Positions 13,385-26,260 of a stretch of DNA of 64,000 nt are shown here, one piece after another. The stretch is taken from assembly GCA_018003015.1 (NCBI GenBank), contig JAGNEZ010000033.1, positions 1-64,000 on the forward strand, read 5' to 3'. Within the stretch, counting starts at the first letter, position 1. Every line of letters starts with the position of its first letter. Under the pieces are notes generated by a model. That model had not been told where the DNA came from, ran no database searches, and was given only the letters and a program-made list of their open reading frames with translations. The DNA is from Phycisphaerae bacterium (GTDB lineage Bacteria > Planctomycetota > Phycisphaerae > UBA1845 > PWPN01). Both the position numbers and the translations under genes were made by a program.

Positions 13385-13458
13385 GGCCGACCTGGAAGAA
13401 CCGCCGGGGAAAAAAACCGGTCGGCTTCCGCGATTCACAGACCCTCAGGAGCATGCAT

Positions 13459-15621
13459 ATGCGGGCAGCGTTGGCTTCGTTTGGCGCAGTGCTGTACTCG
13501 ATGACGGCGGCGACAGGAGCCGAGCCCGCCAAGGTCGACCGGCAATTCCTCGACTGCAAGACAGTCTTTCAGACCAATACCGGCTACGACCCCAGGCTCG
13601 CCATCGCCGTCGACGGCGTCATCGTCCACCAGCACGGGGCAGCCCCCGAGCGCCTCGGTAAGACGATCAACTCTTGGCGCCGGCGCGGATTCACCGTCGG
13701 CCGCATGTTCTTCGCCGATTCCGACGCAACCAACCAGTACTGGACCGGAAAGTGGGACGGAACCGAACACCCCGACGAGGTCGAACGCGATCAGAAGAAC
13801 GACGTGGTCATGTGCGCCGGCGTCCGCCCGTACATGCTGCCAACGCCCGGCTGGACCAGGTACCTGCAGGAAATGGCAACCCAGTCAATCGACCTAGGCG
13901 CCCAGGCCATCCTGCCTGAGGAACCCCTCGCCCACGCTCACACCGGCTACGAGAACGCCTTCCGTAAGGCTTGGGAACAACGCTACCACCGACCATGGGA
14001 ACCCGAACGAACTTCACCTACCGCCCGATTCCTCACCGGCCAGCTCAAAAACGAGCTCTACCTCGAGCTCCAACGCCAACTCGGCCAGACCGTCGTCCAG
14101 GGCGAGAAACGCACCGGCCAAACCATCCCCTTCGTCTTCCCCGTCCATAGCCTGTACAGCAATGTGGCCGCTCACCTCGTCGCCCCCCTCGGCACCTCGA
14201 CCGCCATCGAACAGATCGACGGCTACATCGGCCAGGTCTGGACCGGCCCGGTCAACTGGGCCCTGCATAACTACAGCTCGCCGGATAAGTCCTTCTTCGC
14301 GTCCGCCTACGTCCTCTATGACTACTTCGACCAGCTGACCCGCGGCACCAACCGCAAGCTGTGGCTCCTCACCGACCCCGTCGAGGACGATCCCAACCAC
14401 AAGTGGTCGGAGTTCGAGGAATGGTACCGGCATTGCGTGGCCGCCGAACTGCTCCTGCCCAACGTCGACGCCTTCGAGGTCATGCCTTGGCCCGACCGCA
14501 TCTTCCTGCCCGGCTATTCGACCGGCGGCAGTACCCCCGCCCCCGAACGATTCCGAATCATCGTCCTCTCCGCCATTCAGGTTCAACAGGAAATCCCCAG
14601 GTCGGGCACGTGGCTGCAGGATCCGATCGATCAGCCGACAGCCGGCATCGGCGTGGCCGTCACCGATACCCTGCTTTGGCATCAACTGGCCTCACCCCTC
14701 CTGGACGGCGTCTACGGCATGTTCCTGCCCCTGGTCAACGAAGGCATCCCCGCCTCCGCCTGCCTCCTGGAACGCGCCTTGGATCCAGGTTACCTCGATC
14801 AGTTTAAGGTCATCGTGCTGTCCTACCAGGAGATGAAGCCGATGGACCTGCGGATGAACACCGCTTTGGCCAACTGGGTCCGACGCGGCGGCTCACTCAT
14901 CGTCCTCGGAACCGGCGGCGAAATCTCCGACGGCTCGCTGTGGTGGAGCAAGCTGCCCATCGGCGATCCGCTCGCCCATCTGCTCAAGACCGAGCTGGGC
15001 TTGGAGCCCGGCGCGGAAGGAGACCGCCAGGTCGGCCAGGGCTGGGTCTATCGCCAGCTCGGCTCGCCGCGACGGTTCGTCGATCCCAGGGTCGCTCGAG
15101 AGGAATACCTGCGGCTCATCGAACGCGCCCTGCGAGCGGCCGGAGGCGCCGCCAAGCTCGCCAGACCCGGCGAATTCGTCATGCGACGCGGCCCATTCGT
15201 CATCGCCCACGCCATCCACCAACCGGTCTCGGTAAAGGGCCCAGTCGTCGATGTCTTCGATCCCGAGTTCCCGCTCCGCGATAAGGCCGAGCTCAAACTC
15301 GGCCAGAGCGGTGTCTATCGCGACGTCACCTCACTCATGACCCCAACCGGACCCGCCAAGCCCTGCGTCCTGCATGCCACCCACCGCCTGCTGAGCGAAC
15401 AATTCGTCGACAACACCACCCGCGCCCTGATCCGCGGCCCGGCCGAAACTCCCGCCATCGTCCGCCTCTTCGCGGCCGGATCCACACCCCAGTCCATCAC
15501 CGCCACCGATGCGAAAGACGCCGCCCTCGAAGTCACCTGGAAAGCCGACGGGCCAACCATCCTGGTCAGGTTCCCCAACGTCCCCGAAGGCGCCACCCTG
15601 ATCGTGAAGTGGACGAGATGA
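13459..15621 (+). CDS. Secreted glycoside-hydrolase-like protein of unknown family
   Basis: A 720 aa protein with a signal peptide (RAALASFGAVLYSMTAATGA). The middle holds a segment that reads like a beta/alpha barrel (IGQVWTGPVNWAL, AYVLYDYFDQLTRG). A GATase1-like segment follows (KVIVLSYQEMKPMD, WVRRGGSLIVLGTGGE), as found next to the barrel in several beta-galactosidase-type enzymes. A small beta-rich domain with VWDGTAP-like character closes it. No catalytic pair can be assigned with confidence. The ATG at 13459 is preferred over 13453 because it lies 7 nt from CAGGAG. It is divergent from the catabolic operon, so its product could supply that operon's substrate; this is inference. Confidence 0.75.
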   Translation: MRAALASFGAVLYSMTAATGAEPAKVDRQFLDCKTVFQTNTGYDPRLAIAVDGVIVHQHGAAPERLGKTINSWRRRGFTVGRMFFADSDATNQYWTGKWDGTEHPDEVERDQKNDVVMCAGVRPYMLPTPGWTRYLQEMATQSIDLGAQAILPEEPLAHAHTGYENAFRKAWEQRYHRPWEPERTSPTARFLTGQLKNELYLELQRQLGQTVVQGEKRTGQTIPFVFPVHSLYSNVAAHLVAPLGTSTAIEQIDGYIGQVWTGPVNWALHNYSSPDKSFFASAYVLYDYFDQLTRGTNRKLWLLTDPVEDDPNHKWSEFEEWYRHCVAAELLLPNVDAFEVMPWPDRIFLPGYSTGGSTPAPERFRIIVLSAIQVQQEIPRSGTWLQDPIDQPTAGIGVAVTDTLLWHQLASPLLDGVYGMFLPLVNEGIPASACLLERALDPGYLDQFKVIVLSYQEMKPMDLRMNTALANWVRRGGSLIVLGTGGEISDGSLWWSKLPIGDPLAHLLKTELGLEPGAEGDRQVGQGWVYRQLGSPRRFVDPRVAREEYLRLIERALRAAGGAAKLARPGEFVMRRGPFVIAHAIHQPVSVKGPVVDVFDPEFPLRDKAELKLGQSGVYRDVTSLMTPTGPAKPCVLHATHRLLSEQFVDNTTRALIRGPAETPAIVRLFAAGSTPQSITATDAKDAALEVTWKADGPTILVRFPNVPEGATLIVKWTR

Positions 15622-15942: not shown

Positions 15943-18051
15943 ATGAACCCAGTCGTCCTGGAGTCCCAGAGCGCCGATGCCCTGCCCGGCCACCAGACCA
16001 CCGCCTGCGAAACGGACCGGGTCGCCATGCCGAACGACCCGAGCCGAAAGGCCAACCCGGCTCATGCCTCACCGTCAGCCGGCGTACTCGACGGCATCGC
16101 TCGGTACCTCGTTCGCCAGGCACTGACTATTCGCCGAACCGAGGAGCGACTGTTGTCCCTGTTTGCCGAGGGCAAGCTCTTCGGCACGGTTCACACCTGC
16201 ATCGGCCAGGAGTGGATCGGTGTGGCCGTGGCCAATGCCCTTCATAGCGGCGACGCAGTCTTCACCAACCACCGCGGGCACGGCCACTACCTGGCCCGCA
16301 CCGGCGACGTCGAGGGACTCATCGCCGAACTGATGGGCCGGACCACCGGGGTGTGCGGCGGACGGGGCGGCAGCCAGCACCTGTGCCGCGAGTCGTTCTA
16401 CTCTAACGGGATCCAGGGGGGCATCGTCCCCGTCGCGGCCGGCCTGGCCATGGCCCGCAAGCTGATCACCAGCGGCACGATCGCGGCGGTGTTCATCGGC
16501 GACGGCACACTTGGGGAGGGCGCTGTCTACGAAACCCTGAACATCGCCGCGAAGTGGTCGCTGCCTCTATTGGTCGTCATCGAGGACAACGGCGTGTCCC
16601 AGTCGACCGACCAGTCCCAGACGCTGGCGGGAACGATCGCTGGCCGTGCCCAGGCCTTCGGTATGGATGTGCGGACGGCGGACACCTGGCACCCCGCGGA
16701 ACTGATCAACCAGGCAGCCCTCGCCGCCGACCAGGTGCGACGGAGCGGCCAACCGCTCATCCTCCACGTCCGCACCTACCGGTTGAAGGCCCATTCCAAG
16801 GGCGACGACGAACGCGACCCCGCCGCGGTGGCCGCATACGCCCAGCGCGACACGCTCAACCGCCTCATCGCTCAAAACGGCCCGGAGACGCGGCAAACCC
16901 TGGCCGCCATCGATCAGCGGATCGAACGAGCGGTCACCCGGGCGTCGACAGATCCCTACACCACCGTCGAGATCACCACACTCACAAGGCCGGCGATCGC
17001 TGCGGGGGGGCGATCGCCGGCCCACGCTTGCCTGTGGAAGCCGCTCGACTTCCAGCCGCAGCGCGCGGTGGACGCCATTCGCTCCGCGCTGGGCGATGCC
17101 ATGGCAGCCGACGAACGGATCGTCCTGCTCGGCGAGGATATCCGCGATCCGTACGGCGGGGCCTTCAAGGTGACCGCCGGCCTGAGCACCCGATTCGACG
17201 GGCGCGTCTTCAACACGCCAATCAGCGAAGCCGCGATCACCGGACTCGGAAACGGTCTCGCCCTCGCCGGCCGTCACCCGGTGGTCGAGATCATGTTCGG
17301 CGACTTCCTGCTCTTGGCCGCCGATCAGTTCATCAATCACGCTGCCAAGTTCGCCGGGATGTACAACGGCCAGGTCACCGTTCCACTCGTGATCCGGACG
17401 CCCAGCGGAGGCTACCGCGGATACGGCCCCACCCATAGCCAGTGCCTCGAGAAACACCTGTTGGGCGTTCCCGGCACGCGCGTCCTGGCCCTCCACAAAC
17501 GGTACTGCCCTGGCATTCTCTACCACACCCTGCTCGCGGCACTCGATCGCCCCACGCTGGTCATCGAGAACAAGACGCTCTATGGACGGCGGACCGAACC
17601 CGCGCCGCCCGCCAGCTACACGATCGCGGCTACCGATTCGCCGTTCCCCACCGTTCGCCTCCGGCCGACTGGCCCGCGCCAAATCACGCTGGTCGCCTAC
17701 GGCGGCATGGTTGAACTCGCCGAGGCGGCCATGATCGCCCTTCGCCAGCGAGAAGAACTGTCCGGTGAGCTGTTGATCCCCACCCAGCTCTATCCGCTCG
17801 ATATCGAGCCGATCGTCGAGTCGGTGGGCGAAACCGGGAACGTCCTGGTCATCGAGGAGGGCCAGGGCTTCGCCGGCTTCGGGGGCGAACTGATTGCCCA
17901 GCTGGCAAGCGATCCGCGCCTGACCGGTCTGAAAGCCGCCCGCGTTTACGCGGCCGACTGCACCATCCCGAGCTCGAAACCGGCCGAACTCCAGGTCCTG
18001 CCAGGGGTTGACCGCGCGGTCGGCCAGGCCGTTCGGCTGATCACATCCTGA
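15943..18051 (+). CDS. Thiamine-dependent 2-oxoacid dehydrogenase E1, alpha and beta fused
   Basis: A 702 aa protein joining the E1-alpha and E1-beta parts of a pyruvate/acetoin/branched-chain 2-oxoacid dehydrogenase. Alpha half: TNHRGHGHYLARTGD, GGRGGSQHL and the thiamine-diphosphate motif GDGTLGEGAVYETLN. Beta half from ~residue 370: ERIVLLGEDIRDPYGG, TPISEAAITGLGNGLA, GGYRGYGPTHSQ. E1 decarboxylates a 2-oxoacid and acylates the lipoyl group of E2. No E2 or E3 gene is next to it. The ATG lies 6 nt after GATAAT and has no Shine-Dalgarno, so a leaderless mRNA is likely. An internal ATG at 16027 is an alternative start, since the first ~40 residues are not conserved in character. Confidence 0.93.
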   Translation: MNPVVLESQSADALPGHQTTACETDRVAMPNDPSRKANPAHASPSAGVLDGIARYLVRQALTIRRTEERLLSLFAEGKLFGTVHTCIGQEWIGVAVANALHSGDAVFTNHRGHGHYLARTGDVEGLIAELMGRTTGVCGGRGGSQHLCRESFYSNGIQGGIVPVAAGLAMARKLITSGTIAAVFIGDGTLGEGAVYETLNIAAKWSLPLLVVIEDNGVSQSTDQSQTLAGTIAGRAQAFGMDVRTADTWHPAELINQAALAADQVRRSGQPLILHVRTYRLKAHSKGDDERDPAAVAAYAQRDTLNRLIAQNGPETRQTLAAIDQRIERAVTRASTDPYTTVEITTLTRPAIAAGGRSPAHACLWKPLDFQPQRAVDAIRSALGDAMAADERIVLLGEDIRDPYGGAFKVTAGLSTRFDGRVFNTPISEAAITGLGNGLALAGRHPVVEIMFGDFLLLAADQFINHAAKFAGMYNGQVTVPLVIRTPSGGYRGYGPTHSQCLEKHLLGVPGTRVLALHKRYCPGILYHTLLAALDRPTLVIENKTLYGRRTEPAPPASYTIAATDSPFPTVRLRPTGPRQITLVAYGGMVELAEAAMIALRQREELSGELLIPTQLYPLDIEPIVESVGETGNVLVIEEGQGFAGFGGELIAQLASDPRLTGLKAARVYAADCTIPSSKPAELQVLPGVDRAVGQAVRLITS

Positions 18052-18108: not shown

Positions 18109-18447
18109 TCACGTCTCGGGTTCAGCGGTCGCCGTCAGGCCACAACTGGCAAACTGTTCCACGTAGAGTTCCGCGCGCTCGCGATGCGTGACCAGCAAGA
18201 GGGCCAGGCCCGTCTGGTGCGCTTCCAACGTTCGAGCGACGGCTTCCTCAGTGTTCAAGGGCGTGAGTTTGCAGATCGCCTTGACGACATCCTCGATGTC
18301 GTTGACGTCATCGTTGTGCAGAACGACGCGCCAAGGCGGAAGCGGTTTTCGCTTGGCCTTCTTCACGGACTGGCGAGGTTGGGTCTTGCCCGGCCGAGCG
18401 CTCACCGGGATGTCTCCGAAAGACTCTTGATTGTTCTGATCGGTCAT
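18109..18447 (-). CDS. clpS: ATP-dependent Clp protease adaptor ClpS
   Basis: A 112 aa adaptor that delivers N-degron substrates to ClpA or ClpC. The conserved core PPWRVVLHNDDVNDIEDVV, the helix EEAVARTLEAHQTG and THRERAELYVEQ are present, with a charged N-terminal extension (~35 residues) as is usual. GAGGAG lies 9 nt before the ATG at 18447; the frame is open further up but crosses the promoter. With no ClpA in view, the ClpC encoded at 3977-6517 is the natural partner; that pairing is inferred. Confidence 0.95.
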   Translation of the reverse strand: MTDQNNQESFGDIPVSARPGKTQPRQSVKKAKRKPLPPWRVVLHNDDVNDIEDVVKAICKLTPLNTEEAVARTLEAHQTGLALLLVTHRERAELYVEQFASCGLTATAEPET

Positions 18448-18495
18448 CGGCGATGCTCCTCGTTCCCGCCCCCGATGCTCCTCGAATCTGGCCCC

Positions 18496-18524
18496 ATTGT
18501 ATCGATGCTTGCCTAACTTGCCAA
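18496..18524 (-). promoter_or_regulatory. clpS promoter
   Basis: On the minus strand TTGGCA (18524-18519), a 17 nt spacer and TACAAT (18501-18496) make a near-consensus sigma70 promoter. Transcription would begin near 18489, about 42 nt before the clpS ATG. Confidence 0.75.
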
Positions 18525-18626
18525 CACACTTCCGGGCGAAAACGTGAACATGACCCAAGCACCCAGAACGATGATCACCTCCTCGTCCTTATAGGACGCA
18601 GATTGGTTTGCGGACCCTTACCCTGG

Positions 18627-18640: not shown

Positions 18641-18761
18641 ACGGTTCAAATAAGTGGGAAGCCGATCAGCGGGCTGTTAAGGGGATGACCTGCCGGACCG
18701 ATATCACCTCGGGGTCGCCGAGCCATCGCCGAGGTCTCGACGACACAGGAATCGCCTATTC

Positions 18762-21110
18762 ATGTTTACGCCCTCGATCCGCTTCCGGATCGCTCATCCT
18801 CGGCTGGCGATGGCGGCCATTGCCATCGTTTGGATCTGCTGCTCCGCGATTCCCGTTGGGGGTTATGTCGAGTTCCAAGGTGCGGGCGAAGACGCGGAGG
18901 TTGCCGCCGAACCAGGCCGATCCGTCGTTCTTCGTGCAGATCCGTGCATCCCGGTTCGTCTCGGCGGGGCTCCTGCCGAATCCACGGAAACGGCACTTCT
19001 GCCGGACGCGTTGGTGCGGGCAGTCGGTGATCCCGCGAACCGACTCGTCACCTTCGACCAAGGTTCGTTCGGCGATGCCCCGCGCACCGTTCATCTCACC
19101 AGGCCGCTGGTCCGCGGAACGAACACCTCGGGCCCCATCACCATCGACGGCAGCCGACTGCCCGGCGGTCTTGTACTCGACGCCTCCGCGTGTCGGGAGG
19201 CAGCCGTCATCGTCGAGGGGGACGGGCGACTGACCGTTCGGGCGGTGACGTTGCGCAACGCGGCGCAGCGCACCATTGTGGTCAAGGACCAAGGACAGAT
19301 CATCCTCCAACACGTCACCATCGAGACGAGCGGCGGGCCGGGCGTGGTACTCTTCGGGCAGGCCTCGGCCACCCTCCGAGACTGCACCCTCTCGGCCAGC
19401 CGCACGCATGGCCTGGAACTGCACGGTCGAAGCTCGGCCTCGCTGGTCAATACATCGATCCTCAACGGCGGCCAGTCCGGCCTGGCCGTCTTCGACGACG
19501 CTGAGGCCGAGGGCTCCGCGTGCCGGCTCGACGGGAACGGCGAGTGGGGGGTTGTCGCGGCCAACCGCAGCCAGGTCAGCCTCACCGGGACAACCATCCG
19601 CGGCGGCCGCTTCGCCAACGTCGATCTGAGCGATATGGCCACCCTGACCCTGACGGAGTGCGTCGCCGAGCACGCCTCGCGCTTCGGCGTCTTTGCCACC
19701 GGCGACGCGGTGCTGACCCTGGTTCGCTCGCGGCTGGCCAGAAGCGGTGGCCGGGGAGTCGAACTCCAGGATCGTGCCCGGTTGGCGGCAACCGACGCCC
19801 AGATTGAGGGTAACACCGACTATGGCCTGGTACTCTTCGGCATGGCTCGAGCCGAGGCCGAGCGCACGCTGTTCACCGGCAACGGCGTTCACGGCGTGAG
19901 CCTGTGCAACAGGTCCAGCGCCGAGTTTGACGTCTGCACCTTCTCTGCCAACCGGTACAGTGGCGTGGCCTGCCCGGATGCCGGCGACGGCGGTGCCTGC
20001 CTGGTGAGCCGGTCCCTCTTTCAGCGAAACGGCATGCGACCGATCTATCGCGGTCCGCTGCACATCGACCCGCTGGTGCCCACGCCCGTCCGCATCGACG
20101 GCCCGCGTGTGGTGTGCATGGCCGATCCCGGTGCTCGGATCGAGCTCTTTCTGGATCGCGCCGGCGAGGCCGCTCGCTTCCTTCGAACGCTCCATGCCGA
20201 TGACGGAGGGCGGTTCGAGGTCGATGTCCGCGACGTGCCCGGTGGTTGGGTGATGACTGCCACCGCGACGGTGATGACCGCGGGACGCGGGCCAGGCAAT
20301 GCCGGCGGCAAGCCGGGCTCAACCAGCGAGTTCAATGTGATTGCAGGTTCGCCCTCGGGACCGATTCTCGCCGCTCTTACCGCCCGTACGGGTCCGCTTT
20401 CCGATGACGGCGGGGATGTGAGTCTCGATGCTCGTCTCCGCCGGTGGCAGCGAGGCACGCGGCTGGTGCTGCAGTTCGATGAGCCGCCCGGCCGAACCGC
20501 CGAAGCTTACCTGCGGTTCCTCTGCCCACGCATCGGAGAGTGGACGTTGAATCAGGTCGCGGCGGAGACACGTACGGGTTCCGCCGATACGCTCGGCCCG
20601 GACCGGCTGGTTGTGCCGGTGCGGTATATGCCCTCGGAAGCGGTCGAGCTGCAGGGTCGCGGCGGGGTGACGTTCATGAAGTGGAGCCCGGAAGGGTGCT
20701 TCATGCAGCCGATGAGGATCACGCTTGCCTCGGCCCCGGATCCGCGAGACTGCTGCCCACGGGTACTCGCTCATGAGATCGGCCATGCTCTGGGGCTGGG
20801 GCACGTCCGCGTGGGCTTGCTCTCACGGATGCAGGGCTCGGCCCGACCGGTTGGCGAGGGGATGGTCAACGACTTCTCGCCGACGTTCACCTACTACGAT
20901 GTCCAGGCCCTGCACCTCCTGCACGATCCCAGGGATACCCCCGGAGCCACACTTCGCAGACTGGCCGAACGCGGCCTTCTTCCTCCTGGCCCGGACATCA
21001 GCGTGGCTCGGGCCGGACCGCCGGTCGCCGATCCGACTTTCAGTCCGCCGGTACCCAAGCTCGACTCTGCTAAGACGCCGACGTTGCCTCCCGCGGCAAG
21101 CGTGAAGTGA
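18762..21110 (+). CDS. Secreted right-handed beta-helix protein with C-terminal metzincin-type protease domain
   Basis: A 782 aa protein. An N-terminal signal segment (LAMAAIAIVWICCSAIPVGG) is followed by a long parallel beta-helix region, residues ~60-440, with repeated short strands such as LTVRAVTLRNAA, VSLTGTTIRGG, LTLTECVAEHAS and AEAERTLFTGNG. A beta-rich linker comes next. The C-terminal domain holds the full zinc signature HEIGHALGLGH (residues 671-681) and a possible Met-turn in LLSRMQG. Beta-helices usually bind or process polysaccharide, and matrixin-like zinc peptidases cleave protein. Seeing both in one chain is unusual. It probably acts outside the cell. AGGA lies 10 nt before the ATG. 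Confidence 0.85.
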   Translation: MFTPSIRFRIAHPRLAMAAIAIVWICCSAIPVGGYVEFQGAGEDAEVAAEPGRSVVLRADPCIPVRLGGAPAESTETALLPDALVRAVGDPANRLVTFDQGSFGDAPRTVHLTRPLVRGTNTSGPITIDGSRLPGGLVLDASACREAAVIVEGDGRLTVRAVTLRNAAQRTIVVKDQGQIILQHVTIETSGGPGVVLFGQASATLRDCTLSASRTHGLELHGRSSASLVNTSILNGGQSGLAVFDDAEAEGSACRLDGNGEWGVVAANRSQVSLTGTTIRGGRFANVDLSDMATLTLTECVAEHASRFGVFATGDAVLTLVRSRLARSGGRGVELQDRARLAATDAQIEGNTDYGLVLFGMARAEAERTLFTGNGVHGVSLCNRSSAEFDVCTFSANRYSGVACPDAGDGGACLVSRSLFQRNGMRPIYRGPLHIDPLVPTPVRIDGPRVVCMADPGARIELFLDRAGEAARFLRTLHADDGGRFEVDVRDVPGGWVMTATATVMTAGRGPGNAGGKPGSTSEFNVIAGSPSGPILAALTARTGPLSDDGGDVSLDARLRRWQRGTRLVLQFDEPPGRTAEAYLRFLCPRIGEWTLNQVAAETRTGSADTLGPDRLVVPVRYMPSEAVELQGRGGVTFMKWSPEGCFMQPMRITLASAPDPRDCCPRVLAHEIGHALGLGHVRVGLLSRMQGSARPVGEGMVNDFSPTFTYYDVQALHLLHDPRDTPGATLRRLAERGLLPPGPDISVARAGPPVADPTFSPPVPKLDSAKTPTLPPAASVK

Positions 21111-24707: not shown

Positions 24708-25778
24708 TCAGTTCTTGTTGGTCGTTGCCCGTGCGAGGCAGTCGCGGATCAGTTGGGCGCGAAGGATGGATCGGTGTTCGCCGTCCAGCTTGGTTCCCTG
24801 GCGCTTCTGCAGATGGGCCGACTGGATGGCGAGGAACAGTTCGTTGATCGCGTCCAGATTGACGTTCTGGATGCGTTTGAGTACCACGCCCATGCGGAGA
24901 TGGGACAACAGGTAGAGGGCCTCCTCGGTGCTCATGGTCCTGGCGTTCTGGAGCAAGCCGAACGCCCGCCAGATCTTGTCGTCCAGGATGGCCAGCTGGT
25001 CCTTCTGAAGGACGCGTCGCGCTTCTTGCTCATACTTGACCACCGAGGGGATGACGTTGGCCTTGAACGCGGAGAGGATGTCCTCCTCGTTTTCGCCGAG
25101 GGTGACCTGGTTGGAGACCTGGAAGAAGTCACCGAGGGCGTCGGTGCCCTCGCCGAACAGGCCGCGAACCGCGAGCCGCATGTCTTTGGCCGCCCGGAAC
25201 ACCTTCTCCATCTCTCCGGTCAGCTTGAGGGCTGGAAGGTGGAGCATCACTGAGACCCGCAGGCCGGTGCCGACGTTGGTGGGGCAGGCGGTGAGATAGC
25301 CGTACCGCTGGTGATAGGCGAAATCGACAAGCGATTCGAGGGCGCTGTCCACGCGTGTGGTTTCCTCCCAGGCCTCGTCGAGGTTCAGGCCTCGGCGCAT
25401 GACCTGGATGCGGAGGTGGTCTTCCTCGTTGATCATCAGGGCGAACGTCTCGCTCGAGGCGATGGCCACACCGCGGCTGCCCTCCGCATCGGCGTGCTGC
25501 CGGCTGATCAAGTGCCGTTCGACCAGAAGCTGCCGGTCGAGCGGATCGCTCTTGTCCACATCGACGTAGAAGGTGCTCTGGCCGAAGTTGCACGCGGTGA
25601 CGGCTTCGAAGAGGGTACGTTCGATTTCGGTGCGCTGCTCGCGAGAGGCCCGGCTCAGAAACGGCTGGTCGGCCACGTTCCGAGCGAGACGGATGCGCGA
25701 TGAGATGACCACGTCGCTCAGAGGGCCGCCGGTGGCCAGCCATTCGCCGGTGGATCGTGCCAGTTCGTCGAGGGTCAT
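24708..25778 (-). CDS. mcsB: Protein arginine kinase McsB
   Basis: A 356 aa member of the ATP:guanido phosphotransferase family. McsB phosphorylates arginine residues in proteins, marking them for ClpCP degradation and controlling heat-shock repressors. Family motifs are ISSRIRLARNVADQPF, the ACPTNVGTGLRVSVMLHLP loop and TALFEAV-type helices. The length matches McsB (about 355-365 aa) and there is no creatine-kinase-like N-terminal domain. The ATG overlaps the mcsA stop (ATGA), so the two are translationally coupled, as in Firmicutes. CtsR, the usual neighbour there, is absent. ClpC is encoded 18 kb away. Confidence 0.95.
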   Translation of the reverse strand: MTLDELARSTGEWLATGGPLSDVVISSRIRLARNVADQPFLSRASREQRTEIERTLFEAVTACNFGQSTFYVDVDKSDPLDRQLLVERHLISRQHADAEGSRGVAIASSETFALMINEEDHLRIQVMRRGLNLDEAWEETTRVDSALESLVDFAYHQRYGYLTACPTNVGTGLRVSVMLHLPALKLTGEMEKVFRAAKDMRLAVRGLFGEGTDALGDFFQVSNQVTLGENEEDILSAFKANVIPSVVKYEQEARRVLQKDQLAILDDKIWRAFGLLQNARTMSTEEALYLLSHLRMGVVLKRIQNVNLDAINELFLAIQSAHLQKRQGTKLDGEHRSILRAQLIRDCLARATTNKN

Positions 25779-26260
25779 TGGGCGTCCAGCTCCGCGAGCT
25801 GATCGCGCAGTTGAGCGGCCAGCTCGTACTTCTCGTTTTCGATCGCTTCGCGCAGCTCCCGATGGAGTCGGAGCCGCTTCTGCTGTCGAGGGTCGACGAC
25901 TCTGGACTGCCCGGGTGCCTTGCCGGTGTGCTGGGTATGCCCGTCCTGGGCGCGTTCGATCATGCCGTTCAGCACCTCGCCGAACACGTCGTAGTCGCGC
26001 GGGCAGCCGAGCAGGCCCTGGCTGCGAAACTCGACGAACGACATCCCGCAGTCCGGGCACTTGAGTTGGGCCAGTTGCTGAACGCCGGTCTGCGACATCA
26101 GGAACGAGTTGAGGACGTCGTTGATCGAGATGTGCTGTTTGACGGTGACGCCTTCGTGGGCGGCGCACTGCTCGCAGAGGTGCTTCTCTCGTTTCTCACC
26201 CTTGACCAGGTCGGTCAGGTGGACGGTGGCCGTCTGCTTCTTGCATCGTTGGCAAACCAT
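25775..26260 (-). CDS. mcsA: McsA, zinc-binding activator of McsB
   Basis: A 161 aa protein with two pairs of CxxC motifs (MVCQRCKK plus HLCEQCAA, and LKCPDCGMSF) that bind zinc. A C-terminal UVR motif (AIENEKYELAAQLRDQLAELDAQ region) can dock to ClpC-like proteins. McsA activates and stabilises the McsB kinase. It is the first gene of a two-gene operon with mcsB. Its promoter overlaps the 3' end of the upstream pterin synthase gene. Confidence 0.95.
   Translation of the reverse strand: MVCQRCKKQTATVHLTDLVKGEKREKHLCEQCAAHEGVTVKQHISINDVLNSFLMSQTGVQQLAQLKCPDCGMSFVEFRSQGLLGCPRDYDVFGEVLNGMIERAQDGHTQHTGKAPGQSRVVDPRQQKRLRLHRELREAIENEKYELAAQLRDQLAELDAQ

Follow-up and report, generated by a model that had tools for sequence, protein, structure and literature searches.

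The 64,000-nucleotide stretch of Phycisphaerae DNA analysed here (the window) carries a gene for a single exported protein in which a right-handed beta-helix is followed by a domain of probable metzincin type, and we hold with moderate confidence that this protein is a zinc endopeptidase, secreted or retained at the surface, and that its beta-helix recruits the substrate or acts as its gate. The pairing of the two folds had been proposed in a sequence-only reading of the DNA, and the export signal, the Pfam matches, the structural model and the zinc motif now agree on it. The long right-handed helix named there is borne out by Beta_helix matches of Pfam in 12/12 orthologs, a confident model and structural matches to solved helices, and the complete HEIGHALGLGH zinc motif that had been read there is kept in all 12 proteins. 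On the other hand, the beta-sandwich located between the helix and the protease domain was absent from that reading, and the single conserved face of the helix is a new finding of this analysis. The coordinates of all features are given in Table 1.

Table 1. Features of the target gene and its divergent neighbour, in window positions.
Feature	Position	Strand	Basis
Whole gene, 782 aa	18762..21110	+	ORF list; orthologs
Export signal, N-terminal hydrophobic segment, residues 13-30	18798..18851	+	hydropathy; model helix 13-28
Right-handed beta-helix, residues 95-421	19044..20024	+	Pfam, model, fold matches
Conserved face on one strand stack of the helix: H216, E219, W262, D288, R307, F311, R331, E334, Q336, F359, H377	19407..19892	+	
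Best conserved junction RPIYRGPLHIDPLVPTP, residues 426-442	20037..20087	+	pairwise identity
Small beta-sandwich (read as Ig-like), residues 441-529	20082..20348	+	model strands
Linker with invariant TG-x-LSD (543-548), candidate pro-segment	20358..20438	+	12/12 orthologs
Matrixin-like metzincin domain, residues 560-742	20439..20987	+	profile, fold, model
Zinc-binding motif HEIGHALGLGH, residues 671-681	20772..20804	+	12/12 orthologs
Met690, candidate Met-turn methionine, third His +9	20829..20831	+	12/12 orthologs
Proline-rich disordered tail with FSP-type motif	20988..21107	+	pLDDT <50; motif in 9/12
ClpS, divergent neighbour	18109..18558	-	Pfam

Protein layout and conservation

Judging from its orthologs, which share 37-91% identity, and from dN/dS, the open reading frame is a genuine gene. 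All 12 orthologs present an N-terminal hydropathy peak (15-residue mean of at least 1.86), and a hydropathy scan revealed no second hydrophobic segment past residue 100 with a 19-residue mean above 1.73. In the full-length AlphaFold model, built from an alignment of 12 sequences (mean pLDDT 76.1), regular coils occupy approximately residues 95-421, followed by the sandwich at 441-529 and a mixed domain from residue 560, with linker residues 543-551 modelled at low confidence. The Ig-like label of the sandwich is our own reading of the modelled strand pattern. Residues C392 and C665 are both present in 12/12 orthologs, and a disulfide between the two domains is put forward as an idea only. Within the disordered tail, a [TI][FY]SP motif was found in 9 of the 12 orthologs. 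The longest open reading frame opposite the protease gene (18756-20195, minus strand, 479 aa) is taken to be a shadow frame arising in coding sequence of high GC content.

Mean pairwise identity among the 12 proteins was 0.42 for the helix, 0.60 for the sandwich, 0.52 for the catalytic domain, 0.62 for the surroundings of the active site and 0.18 for the N-terminal 78 residues, and it reached 0.82 at the helix-sandwich junction (residues 420-442, containing RPIYRGPLHIDPLVPTP), where conservation is highest in the whole protein. With respect to the closest ortholog, identical at 714 of 782 residues, dN/dS was 0.23 overall. It rose to 0.70 over the N-terminal 78 residues and, among the three folded domains, was lowest in the catalytic one (0.17).

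A matrixin-like C-terminal domain

Residues H671, E672, H675, G678, H681 and M690 are invariant in the 12 orthologs, all of which carry HExxHxxGxxH with its general-base Glu. A chance origin of the motif was rejected, as 2e-5 occurrences are expected at the protein's composition and the motif is kept in 12/12. The candidate Met-turn methionine, Met690, is located nine residues past the third His in every ortholog, within a segment (residues 682-705) modelled at pLDDT below 50. An hhalign comparison with a profile made from 21 matrixin domains of Phycisphaerae gave a probability of 96.1 (E 3.3e-9) over the active-site and C-terminal helices, leaving the Met-turn unaligned. When modelled alone (pLDDT 69.0), the domain followed the order strand, long helix, four strands, active-site helix, hairpin and C-terminal helix, and the predicted secondary structure showed the order of metzincins (strand, helix A, strands, active-site helix, C-terminal helix).

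A profile of the domain searched against PDB sequences with hmmsearch had stromelysin-3 as its top match (E 0.011; positions 19-141 of 192, 123 positions in all), the remaining matches being mostly MMPs and other metzincins. Foldseek searches of the domain model against the PDB returned nothing at E <= 0.001, with glycosidases and BcsB among the top rows and archaemetzincin at rank 6. After realignment of Foldseek's candidates with VIA-align, the 50 matches listed were all MMPs except for two serralysin-type alkaline proteases (Z 7.1 to 6.2), headed by MMP-8 (Z 7.1, 124 residues, 3.7 A, for a model of pLDDT 69), values that, by the tool's own caution on Z below 8, may signal merely a common arrangement. 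The Pfam M10 match of the 782-aa protein (16.9 bits, E 0.0058) sits on the zinc motif and is below the curated cut-off of 24, and 11/12 orthologs match this family at E <= 0.1 (best 3.7e-4). The metzincin models of NCBIfam produced weak matches alone, and all named peptidase families of Pfam and NCBIfam scored below their curated cut-offs. Because the match is below the Pfam M10 cut-off, we call the domain matrixin-like and not a member of M10. Taken together, the profile and fold comparisons point to a C-terminal domain of metzincin type, with the matrixins as its nearest relatives.

A conserved face on the beta-helix

In the 782-aa protein, Pfam detected Beta_helix (E 3.4e-26) and NosD (E 7.4e-9), and NCBIfam yielded a weak beta-helix match. 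Residues 150-400 were modelled mostly at pLDDT above 90, and the matches listed among solved structures include the helices of alginate epimerases and tailspikes, at Z of approximately 31-36 (best 35.9).

To analyze conservation around the helix, ten coils were stacked and each position was scored by the number of the 12 sequences sharing the commonest residue, with inward and outward positions assigned from the alternation along the strand. Segment 177-407 has 23 invariant residues, glycines included, of which 19 lie on a single strand stack, C, and the helix therefore has one conserved face. Turn and outward positions of this stack averaged 10.2/12, compared to 7.25 for inward positions and 5.88 for all other residues, and none of 10000 random draws matched the mean conservation of the face. 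The turn residues on stack C vary from coil to coil (H, S, W, A, F, R, Y, H, S); as the coils carry different residues at the face sites, conservation of the face goes beyond a plain repeat consensus. By this pattern of conservation the beta-helix is more than a plain spacer. The polysaccharide binding suggested in the sequence-only reading is one putative role of the helix, whose conserved face would suit a ligand groove and, equally, a docking surface for the protease domain.

Distribution and genomic context

Of 13 genomes sampled from the family of the window (Planctomycetota, Phycisphaerae), 12 carried a single ortholog each in whole-genome searches, the 13th genome being 55% complete. 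With the catalytic-domain profile (E <= 0.001), 12 of 114 genomes of the order matched, all of them within the family's 13, and the other 101 genomes of the order gave no ortholog. In a draw of 392 genomes across the phylum, six matched: the genome of the window itself and five marginal cases (E 4e-4 to 1e-3), in four of which the match is limited to 27-37 residues around the motif, and in one to 98 residues. A scan of genome contigs produced 11 loci from 16 pattern matches, all in Planctomycetota, Phycisphaerae or Phycisphaerales MAGs. The gene is thus lineage-restricted and single-copy. Distances between the proteins correlated with those of TrpE (10 genomes; Mantel r 0.80, p 0.0004), and after removal of the near-identical G001 the values were r 0.49 and p 0.077; this agreement is no more than suggestive of vertical inheritance.

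ClpS is encoded upstream and divergently in 7 of the 11 loci examined, and at the same place in a locus from the window's genus (L013) left out of that count. Downstream, a convergent gene for diaminopimelate epimerase was found in 7/11 loci, Pfam having been run on two of them. As both neighbours are housekeeping genes, they say little about function. Elsewhere in the window, the gene at 15943-18051 (+) encodes the alpha and beta parts of an E1 dehydrogenase fused in one protein (Pfam), and a relative of it lies near the target gene in 4/11 loci. At 24708-26260 (-), around 6 kb from ClpS, an ATP:guanido phosphotransferase adjoins a UVR-motif protein (Pfam), a pair that resembles the McsB/McsA arginine kinase pair. 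The 722-aa protein encoded at 13453-15621 (+) has no Pfam match at E <= 0.001.

Regarding the occurrence of the same architecture in other proteins, 40 other zincin frames were inspected (the five marginal phylum matches, five from a further search and 30 loci, with some frames cut by locus ends), and Beta_helix was absent from the 25 Pfam families listed, out of 38. The genome of the window is rich in beta-helix proteins (46 Beta_helix matches at E <= 1e-5), and among its 25 other beta-helix frames, some of them incomplete, HExxHxxGxxH was found in none and HExxH in one. On contig C72 of this genome (L124/L125; ORF L125:46-2604, plus strand), a 1598-aa open frame with beta-helix matches contains a zincin-like motif, HELNHVVDSH, between helix-like stretches, and in an 852-aa part of it Pfam sees a weak Beta_helix alone. 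This frame is possibly a second, different protein combining a helix with HExxH.

Proposed function and alternative explanations

In the mechanism that we favor, the protein would be an exported metallopeptidase with a presumably active catalytic domain, and the conserved face of the helix would hold the substrate, a glycoprotein or a matrix-bound protein, for the protease located behind it. Alternatively, the helix may cover the active site until the substrate opens it, by analogy with the beta-helix of M26 metallo-IgA1 proteases. Since this is a single-copy gene of one bacterial family, its product would more likely trim envelope or matrix proteins of the bacterium itself, or act on a substrate common in the environment, than attack animal tissue. 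The attack on proteoglycans that had been suggested from the sequence loses its footing, given a single-copy lineage gene present in 12/13 family genomes and uncultured MAG records without any sign of an animal host. As for the invariant TG-x-LSD preceding the domain, our guess is that it could form a short pro-segment. A bolder version would have a lineage-wide metzincin family, independent of M26 and with a non-cysteine pro-segment, in which a helix of around 330 residues offers one invariant face as an obligate substrate groove or gate, possibly as a two-headed glycoprotein processor with the sugar on the helix and the peptide in the metzincin; we regard it as unlikely.

The conserved face could instead be an intramolecular dock or scaffold for the protease domain, within a protein that would act as an adhesin, in the matrix or at the surface, and be processed or released through its own protease domain. 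The helix-sandwich junction as best conserved stretch (0.82 mean pairwise identity), the face residues, which are particular to each coil and unlike a repeated consensus, and the disordered, proline-rich tail would all suit such a protein, but none of the 12 orthologs has an LPxTG anchor in its last 60 residues and no cleavage site is known, and we consider this explanation possible though rather unlikely. We find it quite unlikely that the helix has carbohydrate-processing activity of its own, as a lyase, epimerase or hydrolase, with the metzincin cleaving the protein moiety of the glycoprotein on which the helix acts: the fold is near those of alginate epimerases, polysaccharide lyases and tailspikes, and E219, D288, E334, H216, R307, R331 and H377 are conserved on one face, whereas Pfam assigns only the generic Beta_helix and NosD, without a lyase or hydrolase family, and the structural matches, at 8-16% identity, are evidence of fold only.

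The invariance of the general-base Glu and of all the zinc ligands in 12/12 orthologs, together with the lowest dN/dS of the three folded domains, argues against a metzincin-like domain devoid of peptidase activity, in which zinc would serve binding or structure, and against a site belonging to some other group of zincins. Scores below the curated cut-offs of all named peptidase families and a weakly modelled Met-turn speak for this explanation, which we consider very unlikely.

Comparison with known systems

The catalytic domain resembles those of matrixins/MMPs and karilysin (M10A) in the order of strands and helices, the RW at the domain start, the zinc motif and a C-terminal helix with an invariant Asp. 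It differs from them in its score below the Pfam M10 cut-off, the absence of a PRCG cysteine switch, the beta-helix in front and a conserved NDFSP stretch past the Met. The cysteine-switch pro-domain of animal matrixins was discarded, as PRCG appears in 0/12 orthologs. We had also assumed a resemblance between the TGPLSD segment and the karilysin pro-segment; as a profile of the segment and the residues after it, run against PDB sequences (E <= 10), gave three unrelated matches and neither karilysin nor any other metzincin, this likeness drops and the invariance of the segment alone stands. Serralysins (M10B) likewise join a metzincin to a beta-solenoid in one protein, their solenoid being a C-terminal calcium-binding RTX roll, whereas here the domain order is reversed and GGxGxD (RTX) repeats are present in 0/12 orthologs.

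Mep72 carries carbohydrate-binding modules and is not known to have a beta-helix. It is reported to be a secreted metzincin of Pseudomonas aeruginosa biofilms (PMC4334185), and in this respect it is comparable to our protein, which matched the NCBIfam Mep72 model at E 0.07 (11.7 bits, cut-off 645).

The nearest known case is that of the M26 metallo-IgA1 proteases of Streptococcus pneumoniae and Gemella haemolysans, in which an N-terminal beta-helix gates the zinc protease and moves around 10 A, admitting the substrate (PMC7695701, PMC9637739). Both systems are exported single proteins with an N-terminal beta-helix followed by a zinc metalloprotease; M26, however, has HEMTH within a protease fold without other known structural relative, as well as G5 and LPXTG parts, whereas here the motif is HExxHxxGxxH of metzincin type and no LPXTG is found in the C-terminal 60 residues. 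M26 was not among the Pfam matches up to E 1, and the motif is HEIGHALGLGH, not HEMTH. The earlier impression that this architecture had not been described has to be narrowed, because the M26 precedent makes the pairing of a beta-helix with a zinc protease already known (PMC7695701, PMC9637739), and it stands for the metzincin or matrixin version, of which no report was found in the open-access literature searched (including PMC6697440 and PMC12587646). Should the helix indeed gate the metzincin or feed it, the gating role of a beta-helix known from M26 would have arisen with an unrelated protease fold, and its mechanism could be studied more easily in a compact 782-aa protein from an environmental lineage. 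A function would also be assigned to a conserved gene in Phycisphaerae that are uncultured.
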